NCBI GenBank assembly: GCA_963555705.1
Contig: OY743176.1
Location: forward strand, 38,362,497 to 38,426,496
Source of the DNA: Ligustrum vulgare
Taxonomy: Eukaryota; Streptophyta; Magnoliopsida; Lamiales; Oleaceae
Reading direction: 5' to 3'
Length of the DNA stretch: 64,000 nt
Shown: in pieces, positions 13,801 through 64,000 of the stretch
Layout of the letters: every line of letters starts with the position of its first letter
Numbering within the stretch: the stretch's first letter is position 1
The notes under the pieces: generated by a model
What the model saw: the letters and a program-made list of their open reading frames with translations, nothing else
Told to the model about the DNA's origin: nothing
The model's database searches: none
Program-made: the position numbers and the translations under genes

Positions 13801-15762
13801 TGTGATGCCTCAAGGCTAGGCATTGGAGCTGTTTTAATGCAGGATCGAAGGCCAATCGCCTATTTTAGCGAAAAGCTAAAGAGGGCTGCTCTTAATTACC
13901 CCACATATGACAAGGAGTTATACTCACTTGTGCGCGCTTTGGAGACATGGCAACATTACTTGTGGCCACGGGAGTTCGTGATACACATTGATCATGAATC
14001 CTTGAAGCATTTGAGGGGTCAAGCTAAACTGAGTAAGAGACATGCAAGGTGGGTAGAGTTCATCGAAACATTTCCCTATGTCATCCGGTACAAACAAGGT
14101 AAGAAAAATGTGGTGGCAGATGTATTGTCTCGAAGGTATGTTCTTTTAAATTCTTTAAATTCTAAATTGCTTGGATTTGAATACATTAAGGACATGTATG
14201 CTAATGACCTGGACTTTTCTAATATTTATGAATCATGTGGTAAAGGGGCTGTGGATAGGTTCTTTAAACATGATGATTATTTATTTCGAGAAAATAAATT
14301 GTGTGTCCCTAGGTGTTCAATGAGAGAGTTACTTGTGAGAGAGGCCCATAGTGGAGGCTTAATGGGTCATTTTGGGGTTAAAAAGATCATTGAAATCCTA
14401 AGTGAACATTTCTATTGGCCTAAGATGAAGATTGATGTGGTTCGGGTTTGTAATAGATGCATTACTTGTAAGAAGGCTAAATCTAGGATTAAACCCCATG
14501 GGTTATATATGCCTTTACCCGTCCCTAGTAAACCTTGGGTCGATATCTCTATGGATTTTGTTTTGGGACTACCTAGGACTAAGAAGGGAAGAGATTCAAT
14601 TTTTGTGGTAGTAGATCGCTTTAGTAAAATGACACATTTCATACCATGCCACAAAACTGATGATGCTACTAACATAGCTGAAATTTTCTTTAGGGAAGTC
14701 GTGCGCTTACATGGAGTTCCTAAGAGTATAGTCTCAGATAGGGATGTTAAATTCCTTAGTCATTTTTGGAGAGTCTTGTGGAACAAACTAGGAACAAAAC
14801 TACTTTTTTCTACAACTTGTCACCCACAGACCGATGGACAGTCCGAGGTAGTAAATAGGACAATGATTCAATTGTTGCGCACCATAATCAATAAAAATTT
14901 GAAAAATTGGGAAGAGTGTTTACAATTTATTGAATTTGCATATAATAGGGCTATACATTCTACTACTTCTTGTTCACCATTTGAAATTGTTTATGGTTTT
15001 AATCCGCTAACACCATTGGATTTAATTCCTTTACCTGTGAATGAACGTAGTAGCTTAGATGGAAAGAAAAAGGCTGAAATGGTTAAATCACTCCACGACA
15101 AGGTGAGGTTGGCGATTGAAAAGAAAAATGAACATTATGCTTCGCAGGCTAACAAAGGGAGAAAGGGCGTTATATTTGAACCCGGTGATTGGGTTTGGGT
15201 ACACTTGAGGAAGGAGCGGTTTCCCGAACAACACAAGTCAAAGTTACAACCACGAGGGGATGGTCCATTCCAAGTGACTGAAAGGATCAACAACAATGCC
15301 TATAAACTCGATCTTCCTCGTGAGTATAATGTTTCGGCTTCATTTAATGTTTCTGATCTATCTCCGTTTGATGCAGGTACAGATTCAAGGTCGAATCCTT
15401 TCGAAGAGGGAAGGGATGAGGTGATCCAGACCACGAATAAAAGCCCGCACAAAGATCCATTGAAGATCAAAGGAGGACCAATGACTCGACTGCAAACAAA
15501 AAGGTCCAACGAAACAATGGACAAGCTAGTTCAAGGAACAATGGCCAAAACAATGTTCGTGTCATCAAAAGAAGCAAGTTCCATGTTTGGACCGAGCCAA
15601 AACGGCGAGTGGATCAACCTCATTCAAGCCGTCGAAGAAGATTGTCAAAATTCAAGAATTATGGCCGTAACGAGCCCACTGATGAAAACTGTGATTTTGA
15701 AGAAAATTGGATTTACGGCCGTAACTCAGATTTGTCACGGCCGTAACACAGCCTCGGAATAA
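10833..15762 (+). pseudogene. CRM-like gag-pol polyprotein, few lesions
   Basis: Reading starts at ATG 10833. Gag, protease and a spacer stay in one frame to ~12674 with nonsense codons at 10977, 11415 and 12063, and a stop at 12672. Two frame changes follow (~12670 and ~12913). From 12961 a 933-codon ORF is open: RT with YFDD (residues 133-136), RNase H (ECDAS, ~275), integrase zinc domain ([10 protein letters not shown]...CITC), the D-D-E core with [17 protein letters not shown] and DGQSEVVNR, and a C-terminal tail with PRGDGPFQV and NVSDLSPFD. Gag has the usual FKGGSDPEAYLEWEKKME start. Its knuckle is damaged: the first Cys is Tyr in [14 protein letters not shown]. The protease motif IIDGGSCTNVAS is present. 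The last 93 codons lie within the 3' LTR. The element cannot make an intact polyprotein, but RT to integrase is remarkably preserved. Confidence 0.85.
15462..15481 (+). other. Polypurine tract of CRM-like element
   Basis: GAAGATCAAAGGAGGACCAA precedes the LTR start TGACTCG and lies inside the open pol frame. The same tract at 2119-2138 is where the Tekay-like element inserted. Confidence 0.75.
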
Positions 15763-16273: not shown

Positions 16274-19200
16274 ACTCTTTTTGATAAAATTCGGATATTT
16301 CTCTCCTAAGATGATCCCTTTTTGACACGGGAAAAAAATTTCGTCAATAATTTTTTAACCATTTGTTTCCAACTGTTAATTGTTCTTGCAGGAAGAGCAT
16401 TACCAAACTTTTGCTTTATCTTTTAGAGAAAATGGGTATAATCTAAGCCTAACTGACTCATCAGATAAGTTTTGAAAACGAAAAGTGGAATAGATTTCTA
16501 GAAATTCCTTAACATGCATGTATGGATCCTCTCTTTCTAAACCATAAAATGATGGTAAAAGTTGAATTGTAGATGGTTTTAGCTTAAAATGCGTTGCAGT
16601 AGTTTGTTATAAAACTATACAAGATGGAGAATTATCTGATATTTGAGAAAAGTATTCAAGAAGTGTTTTCTCTTGTACTTGAACATTTTCTAAATTTTCC
16701 AGATTTTCAATATGATTGTCCATTTTGATTTGAATTTCACTCAAGCATAAATTTCTCCTAATCAAACGTTTGTTTGAATCTGGTTCCCAAGCAAGTACAC
16801 CAAAAACTAACTTCAATTTTTTTTTTTTGTCAAGTGTAGTAAAATCGAATATTGTGTAACTAGTTAAGCTTCTTGTAAAGTGGAGAGGTCACTGTTGTCC
16901 TACTTAAAACCCGCTTTCCTTAGACATGTTAATAGTCTCTTTGTCAAAGCCCTTACAATATTGCAAATATTCAAATTACGACACAAATTAAAAAAAAAAT
17001 TAAATTTATTATTTTTCAATTTTTTTTTTTTTGATTTTTTTAACTAAAAACTATTGGAAGTAATAAAGCTATAACTCAAGTAACTAATAAAGCTATAGGG
17101 ATGTACTTTTCATTATCCAACAGACAACTTTGTTATTATTATTGAGAGGCAATTTGCTTTCAAACCTTATTCTTTATTGAATAAAATCAGAACTTGCGAG
17201 TTAATCTTGTTTGTTCAAATCTTGGGTGAGATTTATTTTCATTGTGATCAAGAGGTCAGCATATCTATTGATTGTGTTGGTTGCTTGGTTCAGTTAATTT
17301 GAATCAATCTTGAAATCGTGATTCTTTGGCGTTCTTGGGTCGATTCCAATAATTTGTGGGTTGCGTAGCTACAATTGTTACGTGGTTTGCATCAACTCTT
17401 TTTGATAAAATTCGGATATTTCTCTCCTAAGATGATCCCTTTTTGACACGGGAAAAAAATTTCGTCAATAATTTTTTAACCATTTGTTTCCAACTGTTAA
17501 TTTTTCTTGCAGGAAGAGCATTACCAAACTTTTGCTTTATCTTTTAGAGAAAATGGGTATAATCTAAGCCTAACTGACTCATCAGATAAGTTTTGAAAAC
17601 GAAAAGTGGAATAGATTTCTAGAAATTCCTTAACATGCATGTATGGATCCTCTCTTTCTAAACCATAAAATGATGGTAAAAGTTGAATTGTAGATGGTTT
17701 TAGCTTAAAATGCGTTGCAGTAGTTTGTTATAAAACTATACAAGATGGAGAATTATCTGATATTTGAGAAAAGTATTCAAGAAGTGTTTTCTCTTGTACT
17801 TGAACATTTTCTAAATTTTCCAGATTTTCAATATGATTGTCCATTTTGATTTGAATTTCACTCAAGGATAAATTTCTCCTAATCAAACGTTTGTTTGAAT
17901 CTGGTTCCCAAGCAAGTACACCAAAAACTAACTTCAATTTTTTTTTTTTTGTCAAGTGTAGTAAAATCGAATATTGTGTAACTAGTTAAGCTTCTTGTAA
18001 AGTGGAGAGGTCACTGTTGTCCTACTTAAAACCCGCTTTCCTTAGACATGTTAATAGTCTCTTTGTCAAAGCCCTTACAATATTGCAAATATTCAAATTA
18101 CGACACAAATTAAAAAAAAAATTAAATTTATTATTTTTCAATTTTTTTTTTTTGATTTTTTTAACTAAAAACTATTGGAAGTAATAAAGCTATAACTCAA
18201 GTAATTAATAAAGCTATAGGGATGTACTTTTCATTATCCAACAGACAACTTTGTTATTATTATTGAGAGGCAATTTGCTTTCAAACCTTATTCTTTATTG
18301 AATAAAATCAGAACTTGCGAGTTAATCTTGTTTGTTCAAATCTTGGGTGAGATTTATTTTCATTGTAATCAAGAGGTCAGCATATCTATTGATTGTGTTG
18401 GTTGCTTGGTTCAGTTAATTTGAATCAATCTTGAAATCGTGATTCTTTGGCGTTCTTGGGTCGATTCCAATAATTTGTGGGTTGCGTAGCTACAATTGCT
18501 ACGTGGTTTGCATCAACTCTTTTTGATAAAATTCGGATATTTCTCTCCTAAGATGATCCCTTTTTGACACGGGAAAAAAATTTCGTCAATAATTTTTTAA
18601 CCATTTGTTTCCAACTGTTAATTGTTCTTGCAGGAAGAGCATTACCAAACTTTTGCTTTATCTTTTAGAGAAAATGGGTATAATCTAAGCCTAACTGACT
18701 CATCAGATAAGTTTTGAAAACGAAAAGTGGAATAGATTTCTAGAAATTCCTTAACATGCATGTATGGATCCTCTCTTTCTAAACCATAAAATGATGGTAA
18801 AAGTTGAATTGTAGATGGTTTTAGCTTAAAATGCGTTGCAGTAGTTTGTTATAAAACTATACAAGATGGAGAATTATCTGATATTTGAGAAAAGTATTCA
18901 AGAAGTGTTTTCTCTTGTACTTGAACATTTTCTAAATTTTCCAGATTTTCAATATGATTGTCCATTTTGATTTGAATTTCACTCAAGGATAAATTTCTCC
19001 TAATCAAACGTTTGTTTGAATCTGGTTCCCAAGCAAGTACACCAAAAACTAACTTCAATTTTTTTTTTTTGTCAAGTGTAGTAAAATCGAATATTGTGTA
19101 ACTAGTTAAGCTTCTTGTAAAGTGGAGAGGTCACTGTTGTCCTACTTAAAACCCGCTTTCCTTAGACATGTTAATAGTCTCTTTGTCAAAGCCCTTACAA

Positions 19201-22200
19201 TATTGCAAATATTCAAATTACGACACAAATTAAAAAAAAAAATTAAATTTATTATTTTTCAATTTTTTTTTTTTGATTTTTTTAACTAAAAACTATTGGA
19301 AGTAATAAAGCTATAACTCAAGTAACTAATAAAGCTATAGGGATGTACTTTTCATTATCCAACAGACAACTTTGTTATTATTATTGAGAGGCAATTTGCT
19401 TTCAAACCTTATTCTTTATTGAATAAAATCAGAACTTGCGAGTTAATCTTGTTTGTTCAAATCTTGGGTGAGATTTATTTTCATTGTGATCAAGAGGTCA
19501 GCATATCTATTGATTGTGTTGGTTGCTTGGTTCAGTTAATTTGAATCAATCTTGAAATCGTGATTCTTTGGCGTTCTTGGGTCGATTCCAATAATTTGTG
19601 GGTTGCGTAGCTACAATTGCTACGTGGTTTGCATCAACTCTTTTTGATAAAATTCGGATATTTCTCTCCTAAGATGATCCCTTTTTGACACGGGAAAAAA
19701 ATTTCGTCAATAATTTTTTAACCATTTGTTTCCAACTGTTAATTTTTCTTGCAGGAAGAGCATTACCAAACTTTTGCTTTATCTTTTAGAGAAAATGGGT
19801 ATAATCTAAGCCTAACTGACTCATCAGATAAGTTTTGAAAACGAAAAGTGGAATAGATTTCTAGAAATTCCTTAACATGCATGTATGGATCCTCTCTTTC
19901 TAAACCATAAAATGATGGTAAAAGTTGAATTGTAGATGGTTTTAGCTTAAAATGCGTTGCAGTAGTTTGTTATAAAACTATACAAGATGGAGAATTATCT
20001 GATATTTGAGAAAAGTATTCAAGAAGTGTTTTCTCTTGTACTTGAACATTTTCTAAATTTTCCAGATTTTCAATATGATTGTCCATTTTGATTTGAATTT
20101 CACTCAAGGATAAATTTCTCCTAATCAAACGTTTGTTTGAATCTGGTTCCCAAGCAAGTACACCAAAAACTAACTTCAATTTTTTTTTTTTGTCAAGTGT
20201 AGTAAAATCGAATATTGTGTAACTAGTTAAGCTTCTTGTAAAGTGGAGAGGTCACTGTTGTCCTACTTAAAACCCGCTTTCCTTAGACATGTTAATAGTC
20301 TCTTTGTCAAAGCCCTTACAATATTGCAAATATTCAAATTACGACACAAATTAAAAAAAAAATTAAATTTATTATTTTTCAATTTTTTTTTTTTTTATTT
20401 TTTTAACTAAAAACTATTGGAAGTAATAAAGCTATAACTCAAGTAACTAATAAAGCTATAGGGATGTACTTTTCATTATCCAACAGACAACTTTGTTATT
20501 ATTATTGAGAGGCAATTTGCTTTCAAACCTTATTCTTTATTGAATAAAATCAGAACTTGCGAGTTAATCTTGTTTGTTCAAATCTTGGGTGAGATTTATT
20601 TTCATTGTGATCAAGAGGTCAGCATATCTATTGATTGTGTTGGTTGCTTGGTTCAGTTAATTTGAATCAATCTTGAAATCGTGATTCTTTGGCGTTCTTG
20701 GGTCGATTCCAATAATTTGTGGGTTGCGTAGCTACAATTGCTACGTGGTTTGCATCAACTCTTTTTGATAAAATTCGGATATTTCTCTCCTAAGATGATC
20801 CCTTTTTGACACGGGAAAAAAATTTCGTCAATAATTTTTTAACCATTTGTTTCCAACTGTTAATTTTTCTTGCAGGAAGAGCATTACCAAACTTTTGCTT
20901 TATCTTTTAGAGAAAATGGGTATAATCTAAGCCTAACTGACTCATCAGATAAGTTTTGAAAACGAAAAGTGGAATAGATTTCTAGAAATTCCTTAACATG
21001 CATGTATGGATCCTCTCTTTCTAAACCATAAAATGATGGTAAAAGTTGAATTGTAGATGGTTTTAGCTTAAAATGCGTTGCAGTAGTTTGTTATAAAACT
21101 ATACAAGATGGAGAATTATCTGATATTTGAGAAAAGTATTCAAGAAGTGTTTTCTCTTGTACTTGAACATTTTCTAAATTTTCCAGATTTTCAATATGAT
21201 TGTCCATTTTGATTTGAATTTCACTCAAGGATAAATTTCTCCTAATCAAACGTTTGTTTGAATCTGGTTCCCAAGCAAGTACACCAAAAACTAACTTCAA
21301 TTTTTTTTTTTTGTCAAGTGTAGTAAAATCGAATATTGTGTAACTAGTTAAGCTTCTTGTAAAGTGGAGAGGTCACTGTTGTCCTACTTAAAACCCGCTT
21401 TCCTTAGACATGTTAATAGTCTCTTTGTCAAAGCCCTTACAATATTGCAAATATTCAAATTACGACACAAATTAAAAAAAAAATTAAATTTATTATTTTT
21501 CAATTTTTTTTTTTTTTATTTTTTTAACTAAAAACTATTGGAAGTAATAAAGCTATAACTCAAGTAACTAATAAAGCTATAGGGATGTACTTTTCATTAT
21601 CCAACAGACAACTTTGTTATTATTATTGAGAGGCAATTTGCTTTCAAACCTTATTCTTTATTGAATAAAATCAGAACTTGCGAGTTAATCTTGTTTGTTC
21701 AAATCTTGGGTGAGATTTATTTTCATTGTGATCAAGAGGTCAGCATATCTATTGATTGTGTTGGTTGCTTGGTTCAGTTAATTTGAATCAATCTTGAAAT
21801 CGTGATTCTTTGGCGTTCTTGGGTCGATTCCAATAATTTGTGGGTTGCGTAGCTACAATTGCTACGTGGTTTGCATCAACTCTTTTTGATAAAATTCGGA
21901 TATTTCTCTCCTAAGATGATCCCTTTTTGACACGGGAAAAAAATTTCGTCAATAATTTTTTAACCATTTGTTTCCAACTGTTAATTTTTCTTGCAGGAAG
22001 AGCATTACCAAACTTTTGCTTTATCTTTTAGAGAAAATGGGTATAATCTAAGCCTAACTGACTCATCAGATAAGTTTTGAAAACGAAAAGTGGAATAGAT
22101 TTCTAGAAATTCCTTAACATGCATGTATGGATCCTCTCTTTCTAAACCATAAAATGATGGTAAAAGTTGAATTGTAGATGGTTTTAGCTTAAAATGCGTT

Positions 22201-22693
22201 GCAGTAGTTTGTTATAAAACTATACAAGATGGAGAATTATCTGATATTTGAGAAAAGTATTCAAGAAGTGTTTTCTCTTGTACTTGAACATTTTCTAAAT
22301 TTTCCAGATTTTCAATATGATTGTCCATTTTGATTTGAATTTCACTCAAGGATAAATTTCTCCTAATCAAACGTTTGTTTGAATCTGGTTCCCAAGCAAG
22401 TACACCAAAAACTAACTTCAATTTTTTTTTTTTGTCAAGTGTAGTAAAATCGAATATTGTGTAACTAGTTAAGCTTCTTGTAAAGTGGAGAGGTCACTGT
22501 TGTCCTACTTAAAACCCGCTTTCCTTAGACATGTTAATAGTCTCTTTGTCAAAGCCCTTACAATATTGCAAATATTCAAATTACGACACAAATTAAAAAA
22601 AAAATTAAATTTATTATTTTTCAATTTTTTTTTTTTTGATTTTTTTAACTAAAAACTATTGGAAGTAATAAAGCTATAACTCAAGTAACTAAT
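15978..22693. repeat. Six tandem copies of a 1,121-bp chimeric unit
   Basis: Copies begin with GGGATGTAC at 15978, 17098, 18219, 19340, 20461 and 21582; the last ends at 22693, where unique Athila leader resumes. Each unit joins ~296 bp of the CRM-like LTR end to ~825 bp of Athila gag/leader on the minus strand. The unit therefore spans the insertion junction and must postdate the insertion. The two ends share only the short sequence TATAGGGATGTAC or a subset, so the first duplication was probably microhomology-mediated. Copies differ by private or shared changes: GTTAATTGTTC in copies 1 and 3 against GTTAATTTTTC in the others; GCATAAA only in copy 1; poly-T differences in copies 4 and 5. Confidence 0.9.
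16274..16816 (-). pseudogene. Athila-type gag, N-terminal half (also in each tandem copy)
   Basis: On the minus strand a 69-codon open start (MDNHIENLENLENVQVQEKTLL, then EYFSQISDNSPSCIVL) passes a stop into FKLKPSTIQLLPSFYGLEREDPYMHVKEF, SDESVRLRLYPFSLKDKAKVW, then after a frameshift NALPARTINSWKQMVKKLLTKFF and, in another frame, SKRDHLRREISEFYQKE. This is the Retrotrans_gag capsid region of Athila elements in correct order. Corresponding ORF starts recur at 17955, 19058, 20179, 21300 and 22421 in the tandem copies. Only the copy at 22212-22421 is next to the true 5' leader. All copies carry the same frameshifts, so gag was already dead before amplification. Confidence 0.8.
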
Positions 22694-31166: not shown

Positions 31167-31740
31167 CACTACAAGAAAATTGAGCGACTAATCTTTCATT
31201 TTTTTGCAACGAAAATATTGTCGTCACAACTGTAAGACTATTTGCGACGACAATTAGAGACGAAAAATTGTCGTCTCTATTTTCATAGGAATTAGAGACC
31301 ACAATTTTTCGTCTCTAACACCGATTCGTCTCTATTTCCCTTTCGAAGAAGCGAGATATTTTCCCGCATTTTCTATTGGACAATAGAGACGACATTGTCG
31401 TCTCTATTTCCTTCGGTATTAGGGACGACAATTTTTCATCTCTATTTTCCTAGGAATTAGAGACCACAATTTGTCATCTCTAATACCTAAGGAACCTTTG
31501 GAAGAAGCGGGAAATTTTCCAGCATTTTCTGCTGGCCAATAGAGACGACATTGTCGTCCCTATTTCCTTTGGCATTAACGACGACAAATTGTGGTCTCTA
31601 TTTTCCTAGGAATTAGAGACCACAATTTGTTGTCTCTAATACCGAAGGATTGGAAGAAGCGGGGAGTTTTCCCGCATTTTCTGAAGGCCAATAGAGACGA
31701 CATTGTTGTCTCTATTTCCTTCGGTATTAGAGATGACTAT
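31167..31740 (+). mobile_element. CACTA terminal fragment (TIR plus subterminal repeats)
   Basis: It starts CACTACAAGAAAATTG, the standard CACTA terminus. About 550 bp of subterminal motifs follow: TTAGAGAC-ACAATTTGTCGTC-like palindromic units in both orientations with spacers. The sequence then switches, within a subterminal motif, to a Harbinger transposase fragment. No opposite TIR (ending TAGTG) is visible before 40295, so only one end survives or the other has decayed. Confidence 0.75.
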
Positions 31741-31747
31741 TTGTTGG

Positions 31748-40317: not shown

Positions 40318-40890
40318 AAGACGGAAATTAGCGACGACGCATTTTGTCGTCAATAAAACTTCAATTTTTAGCGAAGACAATATTGTCGTCGCAGTTGCTG
40401 TACTATTTACGACGGAAAATAGAGACGACTTTTTGTCGTCTCTAATAATTAGGAATTAGAGACGACTAATTTGTCGTCTCTAACATTGAGGAAATAGAGA
40501 CGACTTAGTCGTCTCTATTCTCAAACTATTACAGACGGAAAATTTTGTCGTCTCTAATTTCTTATAATAGAGACGACATTATCGTCTCTATTACCTTTAT
40601 TAGAGACGACATTTTGTCGTCTTTATTTCTTGTAAATAGAGACGACAATGTCGTCTCTATTGGCCACCAGGAAATATGGGAAACTTTCTCACTTTATCTG
40701 ACGGACATTAGAGATGACGGAATCGTCTCTATTCCAACTCATTAGAGACGACAAATAGTCGTCTCTATATTTAGGACATAGAGACGACAAATGTCGTCTC
40801 TACTAAGAGATAAATAGAGACGACATATTTGTCGTCTCTATTTATCTGTTATTAGAGACGATAAAGGGTCGTCTCTACTGTCTACGTTGT
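40318..40890. repeat. CACTA subterminal repeat region (left)
   Basis: More than a dozen short inverted units of the type AGAGACGACA...TGTCGTCTCT with short variable spacers, often directly palindromic. In En/Spm such subterminal motifs bind the TnpA-type protein; here that role is inferred from family knowledge. Confidence 0.85.
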
Positions 40891-48409: not shown

Positions 48410-49551
48410 TGTAGCGACTCAGAATTTTTACGCAATAAATAATTATTTTAATATTTAGAAAATTGTGTCGCTACTATTTCACCCATTATTTTGAAGTTAA
48501 CGCCGCGACGGATTCGTCTAGCCAAGTCAAGAAATATCGAATTTGTTCGATTTTAAATTTAATGTCCGAATTTCTAAAATTATATTATTTTAATTATTTA
48601 TTCAAAGTATTATTTTCAAAATCATTTTTCAGTCCAAAATATATCAGTTTTAAATACTTTTCTTGATCGAAGTTAGTCAAAGTTTTAGTTGATTACCTTA
48701 AATTAATCCTACCATCATTTCCATAAGATTCAAAAAAAAACATCATCATTATATATATATAATTTTGTATCTATTTTCTATTTCATATTCCATCTCTTTA
48801 TACATCAACCCCACCTCCACGTTCAGCTTCAATAATGCAGAAATTCCCTTCAATCACACAAAGTATTTCCAACTCATCTTGACCCAATTTCATCATCAAA
48901 TCCACATCAAACAATTATGATGTTTTCCACCCTCTCACATTACCTAATTCTCCACTATCTTACTTAATTAGCCAGCAAAACATATCATTATTATAAATTC
49001 TGATATCCTGCACCACCAATGCCTGCACCCAACTCCATCATCTTCAATAACCACAGCCATTCCAAGAAACTGCTGCCTATCACCATACACTACACCATCG
49101 ACTTGCAACCAAGACAACCATTTCAATAACCATCGCCCCACCAGCTCACTGCCAATCAGATTATCACCGGAAATTCATCACTGCATCAATGCCAATTCAA
49201 ATCAAAACCCAAAACTGAGAAGAATCGAAGCCTAGAACCTTACCTTGATTCGACCTAGCTCTGGCCTGATTTCCACCGGAAGAACCGCGAATTTAAGCCT
49301 CGTTATTTGACTTGGTTCGCACACAAACTCGCACCCAATCCTCTCATAAACCTTAACCACTTCTTTGCCGCCGTTCACCGCACAAATCGTCGGCGAAACC
49401 GTCGGATAGGGACCGGCTGTAGCCCGGACTTCACCCTCCATCGCCAGCTTCATCTCCTCTCTCGCCTCTCTCTCTCTTCGATTGTAATCTGATTTGAGAA
49501 GAAAGAGAGATCTGAGGATATTAATATTAATTTTCAGAATTTGCACTTAAA
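48410..49551 (+). repeat. Older gypsy LTR, left part (split by young element)
   Basis: It starts TGTAGCGACTCAGAATTT and is related to, but clearly diverged from, the LTRs at 49552 and 56276. It probably continues at 58198-59961 after the young insertion. Candidate target duplicate taaac (48405-48409) faces tacac at 59962-59966. No internal region is associated, so it looks like a solo LTR. Minus-strand ORF 49232-49546 is leader sequence. Confidence 0.55.
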
Positions 49552-49883
49552 TGTAGCGACCAAGAATTTTTACGCGATTAATAATTATTTTAATAGAAAA
49601 TCGTGTCGCTACTATTTCACCCATTTTTATTAAGTTAACGCCACGACGTATTCGTATAGCCAAGTCAAGAAATAATCGAGATCGTTCGATTTTAAATTAA
49701 ATTCCGAATTTCTAAAAATATCTCCATTCTCTTGATTTAAAGTATATTAAGTCCAAGTACTTAATTCAATGTTATCCCAATATTTATTTATACAAAAATT
49801 ATTTTTATTATTGAAATTAAGAAAATATATGCAAGCATGAGAGGTTCCATTATATATAATAATTATGAGAATCTTAATTTAAT

Positions 49884-50333
49884 AAATATGGAAAAGTATA
49901 TGAATGAATTATATACTCCATTATATGTAATCATGAAGAGCATAATATTTGTATAAATATGGAAAAGTATATGAATGAATTATATACTCCATTATATGTA
50001 ATCATGAAGAGCATAATATTTGTATAAATATGGAAAAGTATATGAATGAATTATAGACTCCATTATATGTAATCATGAAGAGCATAATATTTGTATAAAT
50101 ATGGAAAAGTATATGAATGGTTGATAAGATTCCATTATATGTAATCATGAAGAGCATAATATTTGTATAAATATGGAAAAGTATATGAATGGTTGATAAG
50201 ACTCCATTATATGTAATCATGAAGAGCATAATATTTGTATAAATATGGAAAAGTATATGAATGGTTGATAAGACTCCATTATATGTAATCATGAAGAGCA
50301 TAATATTTGTATAAATATGGAAAAGTATATGAA
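49884..50333. repeat. 71-72 bp tandem repeat, ~6 copies
   Basis: Units start AAATATGGAAAAGTATATG at 49884, 49955, 50026, 50097, 50169 and onward. Early units have GAATTATA, later ones GGTTGATAAGA. The array is repeated in the 3' LTR at ~56608-57057. Confidence 0.9.
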
Positions 50334-50560
50334 TGGTGCTTTACTTTAAGAAAATGATGTGTTAAAATTAATAGAATTGAATGATTATGTTTACAATATG
50401 ACAACTTTATACATCTATTTAAACCCATCTCTTTTACACACAACTCTACACATATACACTTATTTCCAATCTCTTGACAAAATCCACAAGTAAGAGAAAT
50501 TCAAGGTGGTCAAGAAAGTTTTGGTCCATTTACTACTACACTTCATTTTAATCTTTTAAA

Positions 50561-50965
50561 AGGTAAGTATATCTTATGTTTTTATGAAAAGTAAGTATGT
50601 TTTTATGAAAGGTAAATACACCTTATGTTTTTATGAAAAGTAAGTATGTTTTTATGACAAGTAAGTATATCTTATGTTTTTATGAAAAGTAAGTATGTTT
50701 TTATGAAAGGTAAATACACCTTATGTTTTTATGAAAAGTAAGTATGTTTTTATGACAAGTAAGTATATCTTATGTTTTTATGAAAAGTAAGTATGTTTTT
50801 ATGAAAGGTAAATACACCTTATGTTTTTATGAAAAGTAAGTATGTTTTTATGACAAGTAAGTATATCTTATGTTTTTATGAAAAGTAAGTATGTTTTTAT
50901 GAAAGGTAAATACACCTTATGTTTTTATGAAAAGTAAGTATATCTTATGTTTTTATGAAAATGTT
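50561..50965. repeat. 98-bp higher-order tandem repeat, ~4 copies
   Basis: Each unit is 28+21+28+21 bp, built on GTAAGTAT(ATCTTAT)GTTTTTATGA; members alternate in a fixed order, a higher-order structure. It lies just downstream of the TATA-like site, in the transcribed leader, and is rich in GTAAGTAT, identical to a consensus plant 5' splice site. Copy in 3' LTR: 57285-57689. Confidence 0.9.
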
Positions 50966-51475
50966 TGGATCATTGCTATGAAATCAATCTCACAAGATTG
51001 TTATGGGTTCCATATGATATGTTTATGATTATGCTAAGGGGACCGGAGTTTAGTAGCGCTACACATAAGAATTCTTGCCATTTAAGTTCGGTAAAATTCT
51101 TGTGTCTCCCTATGTTTATGAGTATTTCGATCCTATCCTATGTTATGATGAAAATGATCCATATGCTTTCAAAAGAAAATTTATGCTTGGTATACTTACT
51201 GAGATTTTATAAATCTCACTCCACGATATTTACCATTTTCAGATAATTGAAGGTTCGAGGCGGTCAACATGGAAGTGGCAAAAGTGGTTAAGATTGATGA
51301 GATAATTATGTTGAACTTTATGTAAGAAAATTATGTTCTATTTTTATTCACAAATAAAATTATGGGATTCTAATTATTCTTTTGAATAATTTTACATTTC
51401 TATTTAAGTCTCGATAATATGATATGAGTCACTTTTAGTGGCACTCGAATGGTCGAGAATTCGGGTCGTCACAGT

Positions 51476-51487
51476 TGGTATCAGAGC
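51476..51487 (+). other. Primer binding site, tRNA-Met type
   Basis: TGGTATCAGAGC, two bases after the LTR end. Confidence 0.9.
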
Positions 51488-53517
51488 AAAGAGTTTTAAA
51501 AACGATTCTGTAGATTTTTGAAATTTTATTTCTTTAATAAAAAAATAAAAAATAAAAAAAAAATCACTATTCACGTGAACAGTAAAACGACGTGCTATTC
51601 ATGATGAACAGTGAACGAAATCACTATTCATTATAAAAAAAAAAAGTTGAATTTTCACATGTCAAGTATGGTTATGATTTTGAAAAGCATGATGAAATTT
51701 GATGTGCGAATTTCAAGGACAAAATTCATTTTAAGCAAGGGAGTTTGTAATGTCCTGAAAATTTTATGGAATATAATTAGTTAGTGATATGATGTTTATA
51801 TTGATGTCTTTGATAAATTTCTAGAAGTTCGGGGACTAAAGGAAAAATAAGATTTGACGATAAATTTTATTTGGGTTAAGTTATTAATTATTGATGGGGA
51901 GATAATTACTATATCGATATTGGATTTGTTTTGAAGACTGTGATTAATTAGGAATTATGATTCAAGAAAATGTTGATTTGGATGCAACCACATTAAATTA
52001 TTGTTGATTAAAGGAAAATAAGATTATATGAAATATTTTAACTCATCACTCTACTATGTCACTCTCCACGTATTGACTCCTCGAACCAGGTATGTTATAT
52101 GCTTTGCAAGTCATTTACGATTTTATTAAGACATGTTAAGTATGAAATCTTCATATGTTATGAATCTTTATGTGTTACACATAATATACATGTCAAGTAT
52201 GATATAAATTGATAGAAGACTCAATTTTTTTATTCTTTTCAATGTAGAATCATGAGACAGAGAGGATATTTATATGAATTTTGGTGCATATTAAGCTTAG
52301 TAAGATTGACTCAATTAGAAATTAAGTTGGGTTGTAACTTTTGCCCAAAATATATGGAATAATATATTAAACAAACAAAATTGATAATGAATTAGTACAA
52401 TAATTTATCCCTTTATCACTACCTTTGTGTAAAAACAAGGGAAAAACTGTGGATGGTTATTAGTACTTCCTCTTCAAGTTTCAATTTTCGGTTCAATAAT
52501 TTATCCCTTTATCACTACCTTTGCTTAAAAGTAAGGAAAAACTGTGGATGATTATTGGTACCACTCTTCAAGTTTCAATTCTGAAAAAAAAAAAAAAAAA
52601 AATTCAGAAAGAAAAGAAAGAAAGAGAACGGGTGTTGAGCATAATGGGAATAATATGACTTAAGAATGATTTTCAAAATAATTGTTGTCCTCGAGTTTAG
52701 AAATGATAAACCTTAAATGGACTTTGCATAATTGATTTTAGACATGGCATTAAGTATGAGAAGTCAACAGAAATGATTAGAAATATGTTCAGATTATCTA
52801 TCATTTAGATTTAATGAGAAATAGCGAGCCAATTTTATGAATTTTTATGAGATGTTAAGATTATAAGTGATATGATTTTAATGAGACTTTTATGAGAAGC
52901 ATTATGAAGTTAGAGATTTAAAGATTTGGTTATTGGGAATTAAGTAATGGATATTATGTTGAGTAAGTGAATTATGCCTCTATATTGAAGAGAAATTTAT
53001 TATGAACTTTGGCCTTGTGATTAAATTTTGGGAATATGATTTATGACTTATAAATATAAGTATGAGTAATCTTTTGAGCCAATTAAGGTATTGAAGGAAG
53101 TGATATTGTGATATTGACGACTATGATTTGAAATTTCTATGTTGAGGAATTATGAATTGATTTTCTGGAATATTTTTTTATGATATTGAAGTTTGATGAA
53201 ATTGTGGTCAATTTTTAGATCGTTGTGATCAAATGTGGAATTATTTATTATTGTGAGTTATGAAGTATGCTTACGGTTTGAATAAGTCCAAATTTCAAAG
53301 GAAACTCTGCTTAGAATTTTATCGTTTGGAATTAAGAGCATAGTATGGTATGCAATCACTAAGAGAATTGAGGTTAGACATGTAAATTCATTTACATCAC
53401 AAACGAGATTTAGTAGATGATAACAGAGATATTTATTATTTTCTCGTAAGGAGAACACACAAGAGTCACATTGGAAAGAAATACATGAAACACGCAAAAT
53501 CAAAAGAAAGCAACATG
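51488..53517 (+). other. Degenerate gypsy interior
   Basis: No intact ORF. It contains a PPT-plus-LTR-start-like phrase of another element (GGACAAAATTC...AAGGGAGTTTGTAATGTCC, ~51717-51756), a ~95-bp tandem duplication (52400-52492 and 52494-52580), and sequence at 52710-52960 matching 8905-9085 that includes the RT-like ACTTTGCATAATTGATTTTAG. So the interior is a mosaic of related gypsy remains. Confidence 0.55.
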
Positions 53518-53757
53518 GAAAATTCCTCAAATTGAGAGATGTGTTTCCGGAGTAGCCGTATCCTACCACCTCTGACCTTTTGAGGAAATAAAGAAACCTT
53601 CAAAGAGGTGTGTTTCGAGAGTAAGAATACTCCGTAATCTACCACCTGGAACCTTTGAGGTACACACAAGATTTAAACATTAAGGAAATCCTAGGAAATT
53701 AGAGGGGTGTCTCGAGAGTAAGAATACTCCGTACTCTACCCCCACCTATTCTAAGAT
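53518..53757. repeat. Three diverged ~75-bp direct repeats downstream of LOG-like ORF
   Basis: Each unit has GAG-TGTGTTTC-GAGAGTAAGAATACTCCGTA and CTACCACCT-GACCTTTGAGG, with variation. They begin immediately past the LOG-like stop codon (in its 3' flank). Inverted GAGTAAGAATACTC is a short palindrome in each. Confidence 0.7.
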
Positions 53758-54411
53758 TCATAAAGTTAAGTTTACATTAACCGGACTCCATTTTCGCTTG
53801 ATTCCCCTTCCTTGCGACCAATCTATCTTAACCCCTGCTGGATCTTGTATTGAGATATATGACTGCAGCTTATCCAGTAGTTCATCAATAGTAGGAGCAG
53901 AAATAAGGAGTCTTCTGGAAAATGGAGAGATGAATCCCTGTTCCACAGCATAATCAAGAAAGGTTAACAAGCCATCAAAGAAATTGTTAACATTCAGAAG
54001 CCCAATAGGCTTAGTATGGAGATCTAGTTGAGCCCACGAGGTAATGTTAAAGATTTCTTCTAAGGTACCAAAACCTCCGGGCAGGGCTATAAAGGCATCA
54101 GAACCATATAGCATACAAGTTATGCGTTCATGGATGGATAAGGTTTGAACTTCATGCCCTCGTGTTTTTCCTGCAACATCTACCAAAGGGACAGGTATGA
54201 CACCGATTACTTTTGATTTCTCTGCAAGAGCAGATTGGGAAACACAACCCATTAGACCACTGCTACCACCCCCATACACAAGAGTGATACATTTTTCCCC
54301 CAGTTTCTTTCCAAGATCTACGGCCGCTTCTAGATAACTGAAGCCTTTCCCCACTTTTGATCCACAAAATACACAAATAGTTTTGATCTGTCGAAGTTTT
54401 GGTGCTTCCAT
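53758..54411 (-). CDS. LOG-like cytokinin riboside 5'-monophosphate phosphoribohydrolase
   Basis: A 217-codon uninterrupted ORF, full length for the LONELY GUY family. In plants LOG enzymes release active cytokinin bases from nucleotide precursors in cytosol and nucleus. Landmarks: Rossmann start KTICVFCGSKVGKG (residues 10-23), VYGGGSSGLMG (45-55), VIGVIP (68-73), HERITCM (94-100) with the conserved Arg96, the signature PGGFGTLEE (111-119, PGGxGTxxE), TSWAQLDLHTKPIGLLN (124-140) and the C-terminal SAPT. The HERxxxM block is altered: the usual Lys-Ala after Arg is Ile-Thr, so activity or substrate may have changed. Host LOG genes have several introns; this copy has none, which suggests a retrocopy. 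It lies antisense inside a gypsy element, with its own TATA-like box (54488-54496) and 5' leader. No lesion is visible. Confidence 0.85.
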   Translation of the reverse strand: MEAPKLRQIKTICVFCGSKVGKGFSYLEAAVDLGKKLGEKCITLVYGGGSSGLMGCVSQSALAEKSKVIGVIPVPLVDVAGKTRGHEVQTLSIHERITCMLYGSDAFIALPGGFGTLEEIFNITSWAQLDLHTKPIGLLNVNNFFDGLLTFLDYAVEQGFISPFSRRLLISAPTIDELLDKLQSYISIQDPAGVKIDWSQGRGIKRKWSPVNVNLTL

Positions 54412-54486
54412 CTTTGATAGTATAGAAGAGAAAACTTACGAAGAAGATGTGATTTTGGGATGCCTGAACTATGAAATATGTTTGGC

Positions 54487-54496
54487 TATTTAAAGC
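54487..54496 (-). promoter_or_regulatory. TATA-like box upstream of LOG-like ORF
   Basis: The minus strand reads GGCTTTAAATAGCC, about 75-85 bp before the ATG. If functional, the ORF carries its own promoter, not just coding sequence; this would be unusual for a simple retrocopy. Confidence 0.45.
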
Positions 54497-54604
54497 CGGA
54501 AAAAAAAACTTACTGTTTTTCATTGATTCTGAAAAAGTAAAGATTTACTTTTGACAAAATCGGCCAACTTTTGACTGTTTTACCAAATATATCACCTTTC
54601 GGTG

Positions 54605-54735
54605 ATTTATTTCCAGCTTTATCAAACCTCGAGAAAGGAAAATATATTTATTTCCAGCTTTATCAAACCTCGAGAAAGGAAAATATATTTATTTCCAGCT
54701 TTATCAAAACTCGAGAAAGGAAAATATATTTTATT
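54605..54735. repeat. 41-bp tandem repeat, three copies, upstream of LOG-like ORF
   Basis: Units begin ATTTATTTCCAGCTTTATCA at 54605, 54646 and 54687 and each contains a CTCGAG site (one CTCGAG per unit). They lie between the two cargo ORFs, ~200-320 bp upstream of the LOG-like start. Confidence 0.85.
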
Positions 54736-54793
54736 TCCAAAACGCGTGAAAGAAAACAGCAAAATATTTTAAATGTGTATCAAGAGATTTACC

Positions 54794-55345
54794 TTATATC
54801 ATTGATGAACTGCCAGAAGCCTCATTTTGTAAAACAGACTGGCAAACAGGATCTTTTGCTATTATATTTTGGAGACTATAACGATTTTTGTCCCCGTTAA
54901 ACTGAGCGTATAAGGAGAAAAGTTCACGTTGCACATAACCACTTGGGTGCGTCTCAAGAGTCAGTCGAATATCATCCAAAGACTCCTTACTCAGTCCACC
55001 CTTTATGAATTTGATTTTATCATCCCGATTAGTAGAAGAATATCCTACTGTTTTGCAACGAGTATCACAGTTCCAACGAGCACATTTGTAGCAACCATTC
55101 AGCCTTTTTGCTCTTCGTTTCTTTGCGAAGGTGCTTTTGCCTAAACCAGGCATGTGCTTTGGAAATGTCATAGGTAATTCACCAGATAGTCGAACATTTG
55201 CTTCGATCAACCAGCGAACATCTTCTGAAACACCATGAGCCATCAGCAACCTCAATCTTTCGAGTCTTATTCGATAAATTTTCCTCAGATCATTCATTGG
55301 AAGATTGGAATAATACTTGCGAATGTTTGTAAGAATGATATCCAT
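54794..55345 (-). CDS. Cys-rich basic protein resembling viral nucleic-acid-binding proteins
   Basis: A 183-codon uninterrupted ORF. An N-terminal helical, Arg/Leu-rich part (residues 1-60) is followed by a basic stretch STFAKKRRAKRL (71-82) and a four-Cys cluster, C85-X2-C88-X4-C93-X3-C97. Then come DKIKFIKGG (109-117) and a C-terminal SKESLDDIRLTL...GYVQRELFSLYAQF. A KKRR-type basic run just before a compact Cys cluster, followed by a K-x-FIK-G phrase, is the layout of Cys-rich nucleic-acid-binding proteins of carla-like flexiviruses. This copy is longer than those proteins, and an unknown plant zinc-ribbon protein is an alternative. It stands upstream of, and on the same strand as, the LOG-like ORF (382 bp apart). 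It could be an endogenised viral gene or captured host gene. Confidence 0.5.
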   Translation of the reverse strand: MDIILTNIRKYYSNLPMNDLRKIYRIRLERLRLLMAHGVSEDVRWLIEANVRLSGELPMTFPKHMPGLGKSTFAKKRRAKRLNGCYKCARWNCDTRCKTVGYSSTNRDDKIKFIKGGLSKESLDDIRLTLETHPSGYVQRELFSLYAQFNGDKNRYSLQNIIAKDPVCQSVLQNEASGSSSMI

Positions 55346-56252
55346 GTTTTGATGGATCTAACCTCTTCCCAGCATGAACTATTTAAAAGCATTAAGGATC
55401 GGAGGAAATCCGCGTGATATTGATTCCAGCAAGAAAGCGCGGAATAGAATAATGGAAAAGAGGGAACAAGAGTTATGCGCCGTTTACTTTCTTGATAAAA
55501 GGAAGATTTGATGATGACGGGATTTGAGATATGGAATATTTTCTTGGATTTTGGGTACTGATATTTTGATATAATAATCAAGGTATAGAAATAATACGGG
55601 GATACGTGAAAGTGAAATAAGGACTGTATTGAATCAGGATTAATAAGTTTGTGCAAGTGAAAGGAATACCTTACGGGAAATGTTATGATATTTGAGTTAA
55701 GAATTTTAATTATTTGGGAGATATTTGTTTATTGAATTTTGCAGAAATTTTGGGTTACAAATATTGGAAAGATAAACTGATGATTATGTTGATATGTGAA
55801 TAACATGTTTGGGTATATTACATAGAGAATATTCAGGTAATCGTTTTAATTATTTTGGGATATTTGGTGATAAGAAGAAATGACAAATTATTATGGTATG
55901 ATATGTTAGTAAAGATTTATTGAAATTTTAGAGATATTAATACGAATATTTGAGGTTACATGATACGATGATAAGTGACAGGTTACATGAGTACTACAAG
56001 ATATGATGAAATATCACATACGATTGGGAATTTTCATTTTGATTCAGAAGAATTTATTAGTAGACATATGTCTATTATTGATAGAAAAGTTCATGTCTTA
56101 AGAAAACAAATTGATGCATTTAGTCAAAGTCCAGTGGGTTAAATATGGTTGGGTTAAATATGGTAGCGATGATGCTACATAAGAAGAAGAAGAAGAGATT
56201 CTGATTAAGTGTTCAGAAATCATAAGATCAAGTAAGTTTAATTTCGAGGACG
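55346..56252. other. Interior without intact gene
   Basis: Mostly AT-rich. A TATA-like CTATTTAAAAG at 55379-55389 (plus strand) has no partner ORF. At ~56110-56260 the frame with KVQWVKYG and FEDEIIL resembles the worn end of a gypsy integrase. Confidence 0.4.
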
Positions 56253-56275
56253 AAATTATTTTAAGGGGGTAAGTT
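56253..56275 (+). other. Polypurine tract of young gypsy element
   Basis: ATTATTTTAAGGGGGTAAGTT lies directly before LTR start TGTAGCG. Confidence 0.75.
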
Positions 56276-58197
56276 TGTAGCGACCAAGAATTTTTACGCG
56301 ATTAATAATTATTTTAATAGAAAATCGTGTCGCTACTATTTCACCCATTTTTATTAAGTTAACGCCACGACGTATTCGTATAGCCAAGTCAAGAAATAAT
56401 CGAGATCGTTCGATTTTAAATTAAATTCCGAATTTCTAAAAATATCTCCATTCTCTTGATTTAAAGTATATTAAGTCCAAGTACTTAATTCAATGTTATC
56501 CCAATATTTATTTATACAAAAATTATTTTTATTATTGAAATTAAGAAAATATATGCAAGCATGAGAGGTTCCATTATATATAATAATTATGAGAATCTTA
56601 ATTTAATAAATATGGAAAAGTATATGAATGAATTATATACTCCATTATATGTAATCATGAAGAGCATAATATTTGTATAAATATGGAAAAGTATATGAAT
56701 GAATTATATACTCCATTATATGTAATCATGAAGAGCATAATATTTGTATAAATATGGAAAAGTATATGAATGAATTATAGACTCCATTATATGTAATCAT
56801 GAAGAGCATAATATTTGTATAAATATGGAAAAGTATATGAATGGTTGATAAGATTCCATTATATGTAATCATGAAGAGCATAATATTTGTATAAATATGG
56901 AAAAGTATATGAATGGTTGATAAGACTCCATTATATGTAATCATGAAGAGCATAATATTTGTATAAATATGGAAAAGTATATGAATGGTTGATAAGACTC
57001 CATTATATGTAATCATGAAGAGCATAATATTTGTATAAATATGGAAAAGTATATGAATGGTGCTTTACTTTAAGAAAATGATGTGTTAAAATTAATAGAA
57101 TTGAATGATTATGTTTACAATATGCCAACTTTATACATCTATTTAAACCCATCTCTTTTACACACAACTCTACACATATACACTTATTTCCAATCTCTTG
57201 ACAAAATCCACAAGTAAGAGAAATTCAAGGTGGTCAAGAAAGTTTTGGTCCATTTACTACTACACTTCATTTTAATCTTTTAAAAGGTAAGTATATCTTA
57301 TGTTTTTATGAAAAGTAAGTATGTTTTTATGAAAGGTAAATACACCTTATGTTTTTATGAAAAGTAAGTATGTTTTTATGACAAGTAAGTATATCTTATG
57401 TTTTTATGAAAAGTAAGTATGTTTTTATGAAAGGTAAATACACCTTATGTTTTTATGAAAAGTAAGTATGTTTTTATGACAAGTAAGTATATCTTATGTT
57501 TTTATGAAAAGTAAGTATGTTTTTATGAAAGGTAAATACACCTTATGTTTTTATGAAAAGTAAGTATGTTTTTATGACAAGTAAGTATATCTTATGTTTT
57601 TATGAAAAGTAAGTATGTTTTTATGAAAGGTAAATACACCTTATGTTTTTATGAAAAGTAAGTATATCTTATGTTTTTATGAAAATGTTTGGATCATTGC
57701 TATGAAATCAATCTCACAAGATTGTTATGGGTTCCATATGATATGTTTATGATTATGCTAAGGGGACCGGAGTTTAGTAGCGCTACACATAAGAATTCTT
57801 GCCATTTAAGTTCGGTAAAATTCTTGTGTCTCCCTATGTTTATGAGTATTTCGATCCTATCCTATGTTATGATGAAAATGATCCATATGCTTTCAAAAGA
57901 AAATTTATGCTTGGTATACTTACTGAGATTTTATAAATCTCACTCCACGATATTTACCATTTTCAGATAATTGAAGGTTCGAGGCGGTCAACATGGAAGT
58001 GGCAAAAGTGGTTAAGATTGATGAGATAATTATGTTGAACTTTATGTAAGAAAATTATGTTCTATTTTTATTCACAAATAAAATTATGGGATTCTAATTA
58101 TTCTTTTGAATAATTTTACATTTCTATTTAAGTCTCGATAATATGATATGAGTCACTTTTAGTGGCACTCGAATGGTCGAGAATTCGGGTCGTCACA
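56276..58197 (+). repeat. 3' LTR of young gypsy element
   Basis: 1,922 bp, apparently identical to the 5' LTR except for one substitution (57125). It contains the same two tandem arrays (~56608-57057, 57285-57689). Confidence 0.9.
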
Positions 58198-59961
58198 TAA
58201 AGCCCCCAAGTTTTGAAATGTTTCAAATCAGCCCCTATGGTTTTAAAATAATCCGATTCAGTCCCTTTTAGTTTCAAAGGTTTTCAAATCAGTCCTTTCA
58301 GCTTTTAAATTTAGCAATTTCAGCCCTTAAGTTTTAAATGAGATTTAATCAGCCCTTTCATTTTAAAAATCTGATCAATTCAGTCCCTGCTGATTTACTT
58401 TATTTGATTTTAAGCTCAACTTTCAAAAGTATTCATTTTAGTCCCTCAACTTTCAAAACATCAATTTTAGTCCTCAAAATATAATTTATCATTTTGAACT
58501 ATATATTCGATAGACTAAAGTGACTTATTGGCTAAGACGAAGCGTACGGAGAATTTAAAGAAATTGAAGTCATTCCCGCTCAACTTTGCACTCGTCGGAT
58601 TTGAGGTAGACTCGCACTTATTAATTGATATAAATTATGATTTCATATAAATGTCATGTGACTTGTGAAAGTCAATTTTTAAGAAAAGCAAGTATGTTTT
58701 TATGAAAGGTAAATATACCTTATGTTTTTATGAAAAGTAAGTATGTTTTTATGAAAAGAAAATATACTTTATGTTTTTACGAAAAGTAAGTATACCCTAT
58801 GCTTCACGAAAATGTTTTTTTGGATCATTGCTATGAAATCAATCTACCAAGATTGCTATGGGTCCCATATGATAAGTTATGATATGTTAAGGGGACCGGA
58901 GTTTTAGTAGCGTTACACATAAGAATTCTTGCCACCTAAGTTCGGTAAAATTCTTGTGTCTCCATATGTTATGAGGATTTGCCACCTAAGTTCGGTAAAA
59001 TTCCTATGTTTCCATATGTTTATGAGGATTTGCCACCTAAGTTCGGTAAAATTCTTGTCTCCATATGTTTATGAGGATTTCGATCCTATCCTATGTTATG
59101 ATGCAAATGATCCCTATGAATTTCAAAAATTATGCTTGGTATACTTACTGCATAAGAATTCTTGCCACCGAAGTTCGGTAAAATTTTTATGTTTATGAGG
59201 ATTTTGATCCTATCCTATGTTATGATGAAAATGATCCATATGCTTTCAAAAGAAAATTATGCTTGGCATAATTAAAATGTTTTTATAAGTATATGGTTTT
59301 CAAAGAGATATTTTCAAAGAGCTGTTTTCAAAGAACTGTTTTCAAAGAGCTGTTTTCAAAGAGCTGTTTTCAAAGAACTGTTTTCAAAGAGCTGTTTTCA
59401 AAAAGCTGTTTTCAAAGAGCCTACTTTTCAAAATATGTCCCGTGCTGTAATGCACAATATGAGATTTATCAAGAGCCGTTTTATAAAGAAGCCCTATCAA
59501 TGCCCGTTTTACAAAGAGCCGGGATTTATGTGTTTAATCATCTTATAAATTAATTAATTTGCGATGAGTCTACTGAGTATTTCCCCCATGAAATACTCAC
59601 CCTACTTTTAACAGTTTTGCAGATTTCGGAGACGGTGGCGAGCGATGAATGATGGTGGTAATAATCGTTAAACGGTTGAAAGTTTGACATTAATGATTTC
59701 CGTATTTTCCAAACAATCGAATAATTTAGAGAAGTTCATTTATTTGAGAAATTATGACATTGGCAATTTCTTTACAATATTAATGGTTCGATTTACTATT
59801 TCAAATGGTTTCATAAATGTTTTCAATTTTATCAGCCATTGCAGTTTATTAAATGTTGCCAAAAATGAATTTCAATTATTTCTTCCGCAAAAATATTATT
59901 CGAAAAAATTTAGACAGAAAATGACGTAGTGAACCGGGTATACGGAACTCGGGGCGCTGCA
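58198..59961 (+). repeat. Older gypsy LTR, right part
   Basis: It continues the LTR begun at 48410. It has the same signposts as the young LTR (GTATGTTTTTATGAAAGGTAAAT near 58690, GGGGACCGGAGTTTTAGTAGCG near 58895, repeated CCACCTAAGTTCGGTAAAATTC at 58940-59180), then TGAGTATTTC...CTCACCC near 59570-59600, and ends GGGGCGCTGCA. The ORFs inside are repeat-derived. Confidence 0.55.
59298..59420. repeat. 14-bp tandem repeat, ~8 copies
   Basis: Unit AAAGAGCTGTTTTC with AAAGAACTGTTTTC variants. Because 14 is not a multiple of 3, the open frame across it reads a 14-residue protein repeat over three units; no function is implied. Confidence 0.85.
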
Positions 59962-63724: not shown

Positions 63725-64000
63725 CATTTACGACGCTGCATTAACAAACAGAGACGATGTTCTGTAGAGCCTATCAGAGACGGCTATAGTCGTCTCTAAC
63801 AGTTAGAGACAACTTTAGTCGTCCCCACCAGTTTGAGACGACATTAGTCGTCTCTAAAGGTTAGAGACGACAATATGTCGTCTCTAAGTTTTAGAGACGA
63901 CAAATGTCGTCTCTAATGATCAACTGCCACGGATCTAGAGAGACCACATTTTGAGACGACTTTTTCGTCTCTATTTCCCAACAGAGACGACTTTCAGGCT
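63725..64000. repeat. CACTA subterminal repeat region (right)
   Basis: About ten GAGACGAC/GTCGTCTC units in both orientations, the same motif as 40318-40890. This shows that both ends belong to one element. The closing TIR is beyond the window edge. Confidence 0.85.

Follow-up and report, generated by a model that had tools for sequence, protein, structure and literature searches.

Positions 53518 to 55345 of a 64,000-nt stretch of a Ligustrum vulgare contig (the window, to which all coordinates refer) are read here, with a probability somewhat better than even, as cargo of a non-autonomous long terminal repeat (LTR) retrotransposon that is present in many copies, has been active recently and carries an antisense cassette encoding a nucleic acid-binding protein (NABP) and a remodelled LOG that would act in trans. 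The anatomy of the element and the selection on its genes are held with high confidence; the trans-acting mechanism is a tentative proposal, with less than an even chance of being right. The only conserved coding content detected in the element is this antisense two-gene cassette, in which a betaflexivirus-type NABP gene is followed by a LOG gene.

Structure of the element

The element is bounded by two LTRs (termini TGTAGC...GTCACA) whose sole mismatch lies at position 50401, and the 5' LTR carries internal tandem arrays of 72 bp and 49/98 bp. The primer binding site gTTGGTATCAGAGC, presumably of the initiator-Met tRNA type, and the polypurine tract TTAAGGGGGTAAGTT occur once each within the window, both in this element. 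Its flanks share only the 4-bp repeat TAAA; among nine elements with clean ends (the one in the window and eight of 20 copies fetched from the host genome), the target-site duplication (TSD) measured 5 bp in seven and 4 bp in two, including that of the window. The features by which an LTR retrotransposon is recognised, namely paired LTRs with TG...CA ends, primer binding site, polypurine tract and TSD, are all present.

The gag and pol genes that define an autonomous LTR retrotransposon were not found. Ten ORF pieces from the interior gave no gag or pol match against Pfam, a tblastn search of the interior with the gypsy gag and pol of the window itself and with a copia piece was also negative, and the 20 fetched copies gave no gag or pol match, the gypsy element of the window serving as positive control. 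The type of primer binding site and the 5-bp TSD are at most suggestive of Ty3/gypsy membership.

An initial annotation, made from the letters of the window, had described an LTR pair one base apart in 1,922, an intact antisense LOG-like ORF of 217 codons, a 41-bp repeat array upstream of that ORF and a pol reduced to rubble. The first three descriptions were confirmed; the fourth is more accurately stated as no detected pol. The NABP-like ORF had been missed, the interval 53518-55345 stopping exactly at its start codon.

Copies in the host genome

First-pass searches of the host assembly (1.385 Gb, 51 contigs) gave 9,447 candidates for LOG, 8,800 for NABP and 8,911 for AtLOG3, all unverified. 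Results were taken from the best 150 for each query, lists which by construction are skewed towards intact copies, and this weighs against an easy reading of their openness: all 150 LOG matches were full length and 147 lacked a stop, all 150 NABP matches were full length and none had stops, and the AtLOG3 matches (49-52% identity) were single frames of 210-254 codons, 144 of them without a stop. The latter look like copies of the element. No intron-split host LOG was seen among the best 150 AtLOG3 matches, where such a gene would score lower. The LOG lists obtained with the window query and with AtLOG3, compared by eye, have no locus in common on contig C2, which brings the number of verified copies above 150.

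Both ORFs were found in each of the 20 fetched copies, which had been chosen by LOG similarity. An LTR-like repeat pair was present in 19, with identities of 94.7-100% (100% in five), several of these pairs reaching the edge of the fetched stretch or resembling tandem arrays; the pair of L037 measured just 381 bp and L021 had none. The LTR of the window matched 15 of the copies at 91-99% across at least one nearly complete LTR; in the other five, the divergent copies, 620-785 of its 1,922 bp were matched at 81-87%. The family is therefore multi-copy, with some members having identical LTRs, and the further copies that the initial annotation had proposed to look for do exist. Many copies are found on one strand at intervals of 6.4-7.1 kb (e.g. 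C2:75232644 and 75239375; C10:39634817, 39641274 and 39647731), a spacing as expected from head-to-tail arrays with shared LTRs.

An assembly error, which had been named as a way in which the proposal could fail, or a chance nesting that put the ORFs between these LTRs can be practically dismissed. We found no point in support of either, and all 20 fetched copies, distributed over many contigs, repeated the arrangement, with LTR pairs in 19 and TSDs in all nine clean-ended elements.

Linkage of the two genes was also seen in the lists themselves, at least 13 places being common to the LOG and NABP lists, with both genes on the same strand and 340-385 bp apart (pairs picked by eye). When the contigs of 80 of 120 LOG matches and 119 of 120 NABP matches in the wider search were compared by size, exactly equal sizes were found in 10 cases, the mean at shifted sizes being 3.0. 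Above 1,500 bp the figures were 5 and 0.47, one of the five being a 22-Mb chromosome that is uninformative on linkage. Contigs of 1.6, 2.1, 4.5 and 8.7 kb are among those with both matches, and in three Orobanche gene models an NABP and a LOG domain are joined within a single predicted protein.

Selection on both reading frames

When the interior was compared with the five divergent copies, the LOG bins were 97-99% identical, the NABP bins 87-97%, two intergenic bins 61-78% and the part just upstream of NABP 74-81%. The first kilobase of the 5' interior did not align, and patches alone did so up to about position 52,970. Seventeen of the 20 copies had an open LOG frame. NABP had the length found in the window and no stops in 15; three copies had 181-aa frames with a different C terminus, in L029 the protein was of 174 aa, and in L030 it was interrupted by a stop. 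The ratio of non-synonymous to synonymous rates (omega) was 0.26 for NABP against the five divergent copies and 0.27 against three intermediate ones. For LOG it was 0.05, a value biased because these copies had been selected on LOG similarity.

A second set was thus chosen by non-coding DNA, fetching 14 of 41 matches to the intergenic region. LOG was open in 13 of them. The six divergent copies of this set gave 66 synonymous and 16 non-synonymous changes (site ratio 3.18; division into near and divergent copies made after the counts, sums by hand), and the overall omega was 0.13. In four further copies chosen by NABP, the window aside, LOG was without a stop in three. Because LOG is open in 13 of 14 copies and shows the 66:16 ratio in divergent ones, we conclude that it has been under purifying selection between lineages. 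The dN/dS check suggested in the initial annotation, run here between element copies, thus gave a value not near 1, and together with the copies and the identical LTRs it bears out the view that a recently moved retrotransposon spreads an intact LOG-like gene.

Some of the counts weigh against selection as stated here. In the eight near copies of the second set, 6 synonymous and 15 non-synonymous changes were counted, which is almost neutral; the omega of NABP rose to 0.44 against twelve near copies; and all counts share one reference and hence are not independent. Moreover, L037, L038 and L039 share one TAG codon in LOG, and as the LTRs of L038 and L039 are 100% and 99.95% identical, LOG is dispensable in cis. 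The near copies and the shared stop are what would be seen if both ORFs were neutral passengers, intact merely through young insertions. We consider this very unlikely given the 66:16 ratio in divergent copies, the identity of 97-99% in LOG bins versus 61-78% in intergenic ones, and the conservation of the clade between rosids and asterids. Selection acting on source elements, followed by near-neutral decay after insertion, would give the pattern seen in divergent and near copies.

The LOG-like protein belongs to a deep, separate clade

The window ORF has the PF03641 fold, the PGGxGTxxE signature (as PGGFGTLEE) and the catalytic Arg and Glu (R96 and E119) of type-I LOGs. The Lys and Glu of the adenine/prenyl pocket are missing, I97 and N122 standing at the positions of CgLOG K100 and E125. 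AtLOG3 is the nearest solved relative (Foldseek, 2a33_B, TMt 0.94), with 52% identity over the aligned part compared to 43% for AtLOG8. In the structure model the fold was predicted with high confidence, and the tail (residues 200-217) came out as disordered.

In a tree of 30 LOGs of what we call the mobile clade and 23 canonical plant LOGs, the two groups were split on a single branch with 100/100 support. The mobile-clade side is deep and includes Populus proteins (e.g. P0060). Named relatives among the best 120 of 6,754 matches include proteins of Populus, Xanthoceras, Diospyros, Reevesia, Diplodiscus, Primulina and Parasponia, genera which we take to span rosids and asterids. The label mobile, as applied to the whole clade, is suggested by NABP/LOG linkage, copy number and published gypsy cases, mobility itself being shown solely in the Ligustrum vulgare genome. 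Since the clade is deep and separate from canonical plant LOGs, the capture of LOG is old, and the LOG of the window is not a host LOG newly on the move. The first branches of the clade are P0044 and the Xanthoceras proteins P0092 and P0117, in which HERK is still present. The two Xanthoceras proteins terminate in KKRRLA without LxLxL and possibly represent an intermediate state.

The pocket was compared between 116 mobile-clade and 97 canonical LOG proteins. Conservation in the mobile clade is 94% for the catalytic Arg, 98% for the catalytic Glu and 96-100% for the PGGxGTxxE residues; 4% of the proteins retain the Lys beside the catalytic Arg and 3% the pocket Glu, the former being replaced mostly by M, I or L and the latter mostly by Q, H or N. 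In CgLOG, K100 and E125 line the adenine and prenyl sites, and replacement of crucial residues by Ala nearly abolished AMP hydrolysis (PMC4979012, PMC5379747). In CgLOGII, Lys156Ala abolished it (PMC5379747). Cytokinin activation by the window protein is therefore doubtful, its pocket lacking the Lys and Glu that contact adenine or the prenyl group in characterised LOGs.

The initial annotation had proposed that a host cytokinin-activating LOG was recently transduced and is being spread as a working hormone enzyme. We regard this as unlikely. The AtLOG3-like fold, the catalytic Arg and Glu, the PGGxGTxxE signature and the intact ORF would all be expected of such a gene, and active LOGs are known to differ in pocket residues (PMC5379747). 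Set against this are the deep clade separate from canonical LOGs, the identities of only 52% and 43% to AtLOG3 and AtLOG8, the near absence of the pocket Lys and Glu from the clade, and the loss of AMP hydrolysis on Ala replacement of the equivalent CgLOGII Lys (PMC5379747). Recent transduction was thus not upheld, the gene being also paired with a virus-like NABP, and the description as hormone-activating is questionable on the predicted pocket.

The C-terminal tail, KRKWSPVNVNLTL in the window protein, was compared between 121 mobile-clade proteins (the best 120 LOG matches and the window) and 120 canonical ones (the listed matches nearest AtLOG3 or AtLOG8, a sample in which not every LOG subfamily is represented). 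An LxLxL pattern was found in the tail past the fold in 92 of 121 mobile-clade proteins versus 0 of 120 canonical ones, and a basic cluster in 106 versus 2. Outside the tail, LxLxL was uncommon in both sets (4 mobile-clade and 6 canonical occurrences). In the tree set, leaving out the window, the strict pattern was present in 23 of 29. We take this LxLxL tail to be a putative EAR-like (ethylene-responsive element-binding factor-associated amphiphilic repression) motif that would engage TOPLESS corepressors.

The NABP-like protein

Both Pfam matches of the NABP-like ORF lie above the curated cut-offs (PF05515, 32.7 versus 23 bits; PF01623, 25 versus 20.9 bits), and the protein contains a basic stretch and a C-x2-C-x4-C-x3-C cluster. 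At E<=1, 264 relatives were found; among the best 120, many measure about 182 aa, and those with names come from gene models of Orobanche, Striga, Populus, Xanthoceras and Acer. In a set of 29 relatives, PF05515 was matched by 26 and PF01623 by 24 (E<=0.001). With at least 150 matches in the host assembly, the ORF departs from the virus-encoded nature of Viral_NABP and Carla_C4 proteins.

In plant viruses, cysteine-rich proteins (CRPs) occur in Alphaflexiviridae and Betaflexiviridae, NABPs are reported to suppress silencing, and p12 of chrysanthemum virus B (CVB) is reported to be a transcription factor that causes hyperplasia (PMC12172455). The cassette might be a fossil RNA virus with NABP and LOG that was reverse-transcribed into the element, and the naming of the Pfam NABP family for plant-virus proteins, the CRPs of these two virus families (PMC12172455) and the tandem order of NABP and LOG on one strand all speak for it. 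The probability of such an origin is nonetheless low: pattern matches to NABP, LOG and an NABP profile numbered 5, 4 and 65 in scans of IMG/VR, and none of them was a confirmed NABP or LOG relative; the ten interior ORF pieces contained no other viral domain, and the named relatives among the matches listed are plant gene models.

Relation to known systems

Athila-like elements with similarity to LOGL4 were reportedly described by Steinbauerova et al. in 2011. That earlier report (Steinbauerova et al. 2011) is cited by Alvarado-Marchena et al. (2022, PMC9289625), whose account covers Ty3/gypsy elements of Citrus and Populus that contain a YgdH/LOG domain; there, as here, a LOG-type domain adds to the coding capacity of an LTR retrotransposon. 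In our tree, Populus relatives from the best-120 list (e.g. P0060) share a clade with the window LOG. Unlike the Citrus and Populus elements, which were found via reverse transcriptase, the window element has no detected gag or pol and carries NABP beside LOG, being set apart on description; the available part of that account does not mention NABP, tail or pocket (PMC9289625). Retand elements also have antisense ORFs with conserved domains (TRP28) near the 3' LTR, tandem arrays and some non-autonomous members (Vicient 2025, PMC11963269); the terms lonely, cytokinin, NABP, nucleic acid binding and carlavirus are absent from the available text of that account (PMC11963269). A review of extra ORFs, covering both sense and antisense ones, contains no YgdH, LOG, lysine decarboxylase, carlavirus or nucleic acid binding. 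In orchids, gypsy elements encode an AlkB RNA demethylase, again an additional gene whose type is also present in Betaflexiviridae; that gene is a different one, and those elements are of 25 kb with gag and pol (PMC9289625).

At the protein level, the window LOG shares fold, signature and catalytic residues with the type-I LOGs AtLOG3, AtLOG8 and CgLOG, and its clade differs from them in the pocket substitutions and the basic, LxLxL-bearing tail. The NABP resembles carlavirus and allexivirus NABPs/CRPs (e.g. CVB p12) in its Viral_NABP and Carla_C4 matches, basic stretch and Cys cluster, and differs in sitting in a chromosomal retrotransposon family and in its length of about 182 aa. LOG domains in gypsy elements and antisense ORFs near the 3' LTR are already published; for the NABP partner, the LxLxL tail, the pocket change or a family reduced to two genes, searches of an open-licence library gave no match among the papers listed.

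Proposed mode of action

In the trans-acting mechanism that we tentatively propose, both proteins would be produced from antisense transcripts and act in the nucleus. By analogy with carlavirus NABPs, the NABP may bind nucleic acid and dampen silencing or change transcription, a role that would suit a retrotransposon, which in dividing cells has to get past silencing. The LOG may retain a phosphoribohydrolase-type site with changed base specificity, working on a different nucleotide, or may now be chiefly an adaptor; its tail, in most of the clade, would engage TOPLESS-type corepressors. The family would be retained since host cells become permissive, with an autonomous element providing gag-pol. 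A bolder version, possible though not probable, is a two-protein host-manipulation kit across eudicots, in which a viral-type silencing suppressor or transcription regulator is combined with a nuclear, TOPLESS-recruiting LOG that no longer activates cytokinin and either works on a different adenine nucleotide, perhaps a defence signal, or sequesters it.

Further observations weigh against the cassette reading. Active LOGs differ in prenyl-pocket residues, and cytokinin is still made by CgLOGII, whose pocket residues differ although the Lys is present (PMC5379747), so that loss of activity in the mobile-clade LOG is not certain. The tail of the window protein, VNVNLTL, is degenerate and fails the strict LxLxL pattern. 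The NABP model is of low confidence (pLDDT, predicted local distance difference test, 58.5), NABP/LOG linkage in other plants is suggested by equal-sized contigs and three fused gene models, and an autonomous partner element was not found in the window or among the fetched copies. The window does contain a gypsy-type region with long gag and pol reading frames (10980-15762); the primer binding site and polypurine tract patterns of the LOG-carrying element do not occur in it, and its gag and pol had no match in the fetched copies.

Extra ORFs of plant retrotransposons have long been known, mostly without recognised domains. Two recognisable genes under selection, one virus-like and one enzyme-like, make the question of retrotransposon cargo directly testable, and suggest that a very abundant element may act on its host besides copying itself. 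If the proteins do affect silencing or TOPLESS corepression, very many element copies could influence their host, and in the enzyme there would be a naturally occurring LOG whose pocket has been rebuilt.

Features of the element and of its surroundings

The coordinates of the features are collected in Table 1. A putative TATA-like box, TTTAAATAG, was identified by eye upstream of the LOG ATG. The repeat block directly downstream of LOG is conserved nearly to the level of coding DNA; its predicted RNA fold had no advantage over shuffled sequences (z 0.09). Scans of the window with Rfam at the gathering threshold and for tRNAs gave no match.

Table 1. Features of the LOG-carrying element, in window coordinates
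Feature	Position	Strand	Remarks
5' LTR	49552-51473	+	1,922 bp; one mismatch versus 56276-58197; TG...CA ends
Primer binding site gTTGGTATCAGAGC	51474-51487	+	Directly after 5' LTR
5' interior	51488-53530	+	No coding domain detected
Block directly downstream of LOG	53531-53752	-	Three imperfect repeats of ~45 nt; 53574-53723 96% identical in five divergent copies
LOG-like ORF (mobile clade), 217 aa	53758-54411	-	PF03641 E=1.3e-33; single open frame
Intergenic region	54412-54793	-	TATA-like box and 41-bp array; bins 54474-54773 least conserved in cassette
41-bp tandem array	54605-54739		3.3 copies
NABP-like ORF, 183 aa	54794-55345	-	PF05515 Viral_NABP 9.8e-8; PF01623 Carla_C4 1.9e-5
Region upstream of NABP, presumed promoter	55346-56260	-	55374-55973 74-87% in divergent copies, partly unaligned
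Polypurine tract TTAAGGGGGTAAGTT	56261-56275	+	Directly before 3' LTR
3' LTR	56276-58197	+	1,922 bp; near-identical partner of 49552-51473

Older, related LTR fragments lie on either side of the element (48410-48583, 58676-58980 and 59151-59288), and for this reason it is probably nested inside an older relative. Elsewhere in the window, six marks about 1,121 bp apart at 17003-22646 suggest that units of 1.1 kb are repeated there in tandem, and near-palindromic repeat clusters made from TAGAGACGACAA and its reverse complement are found at 31253-31744, 40417-40877 and 63776-63916.

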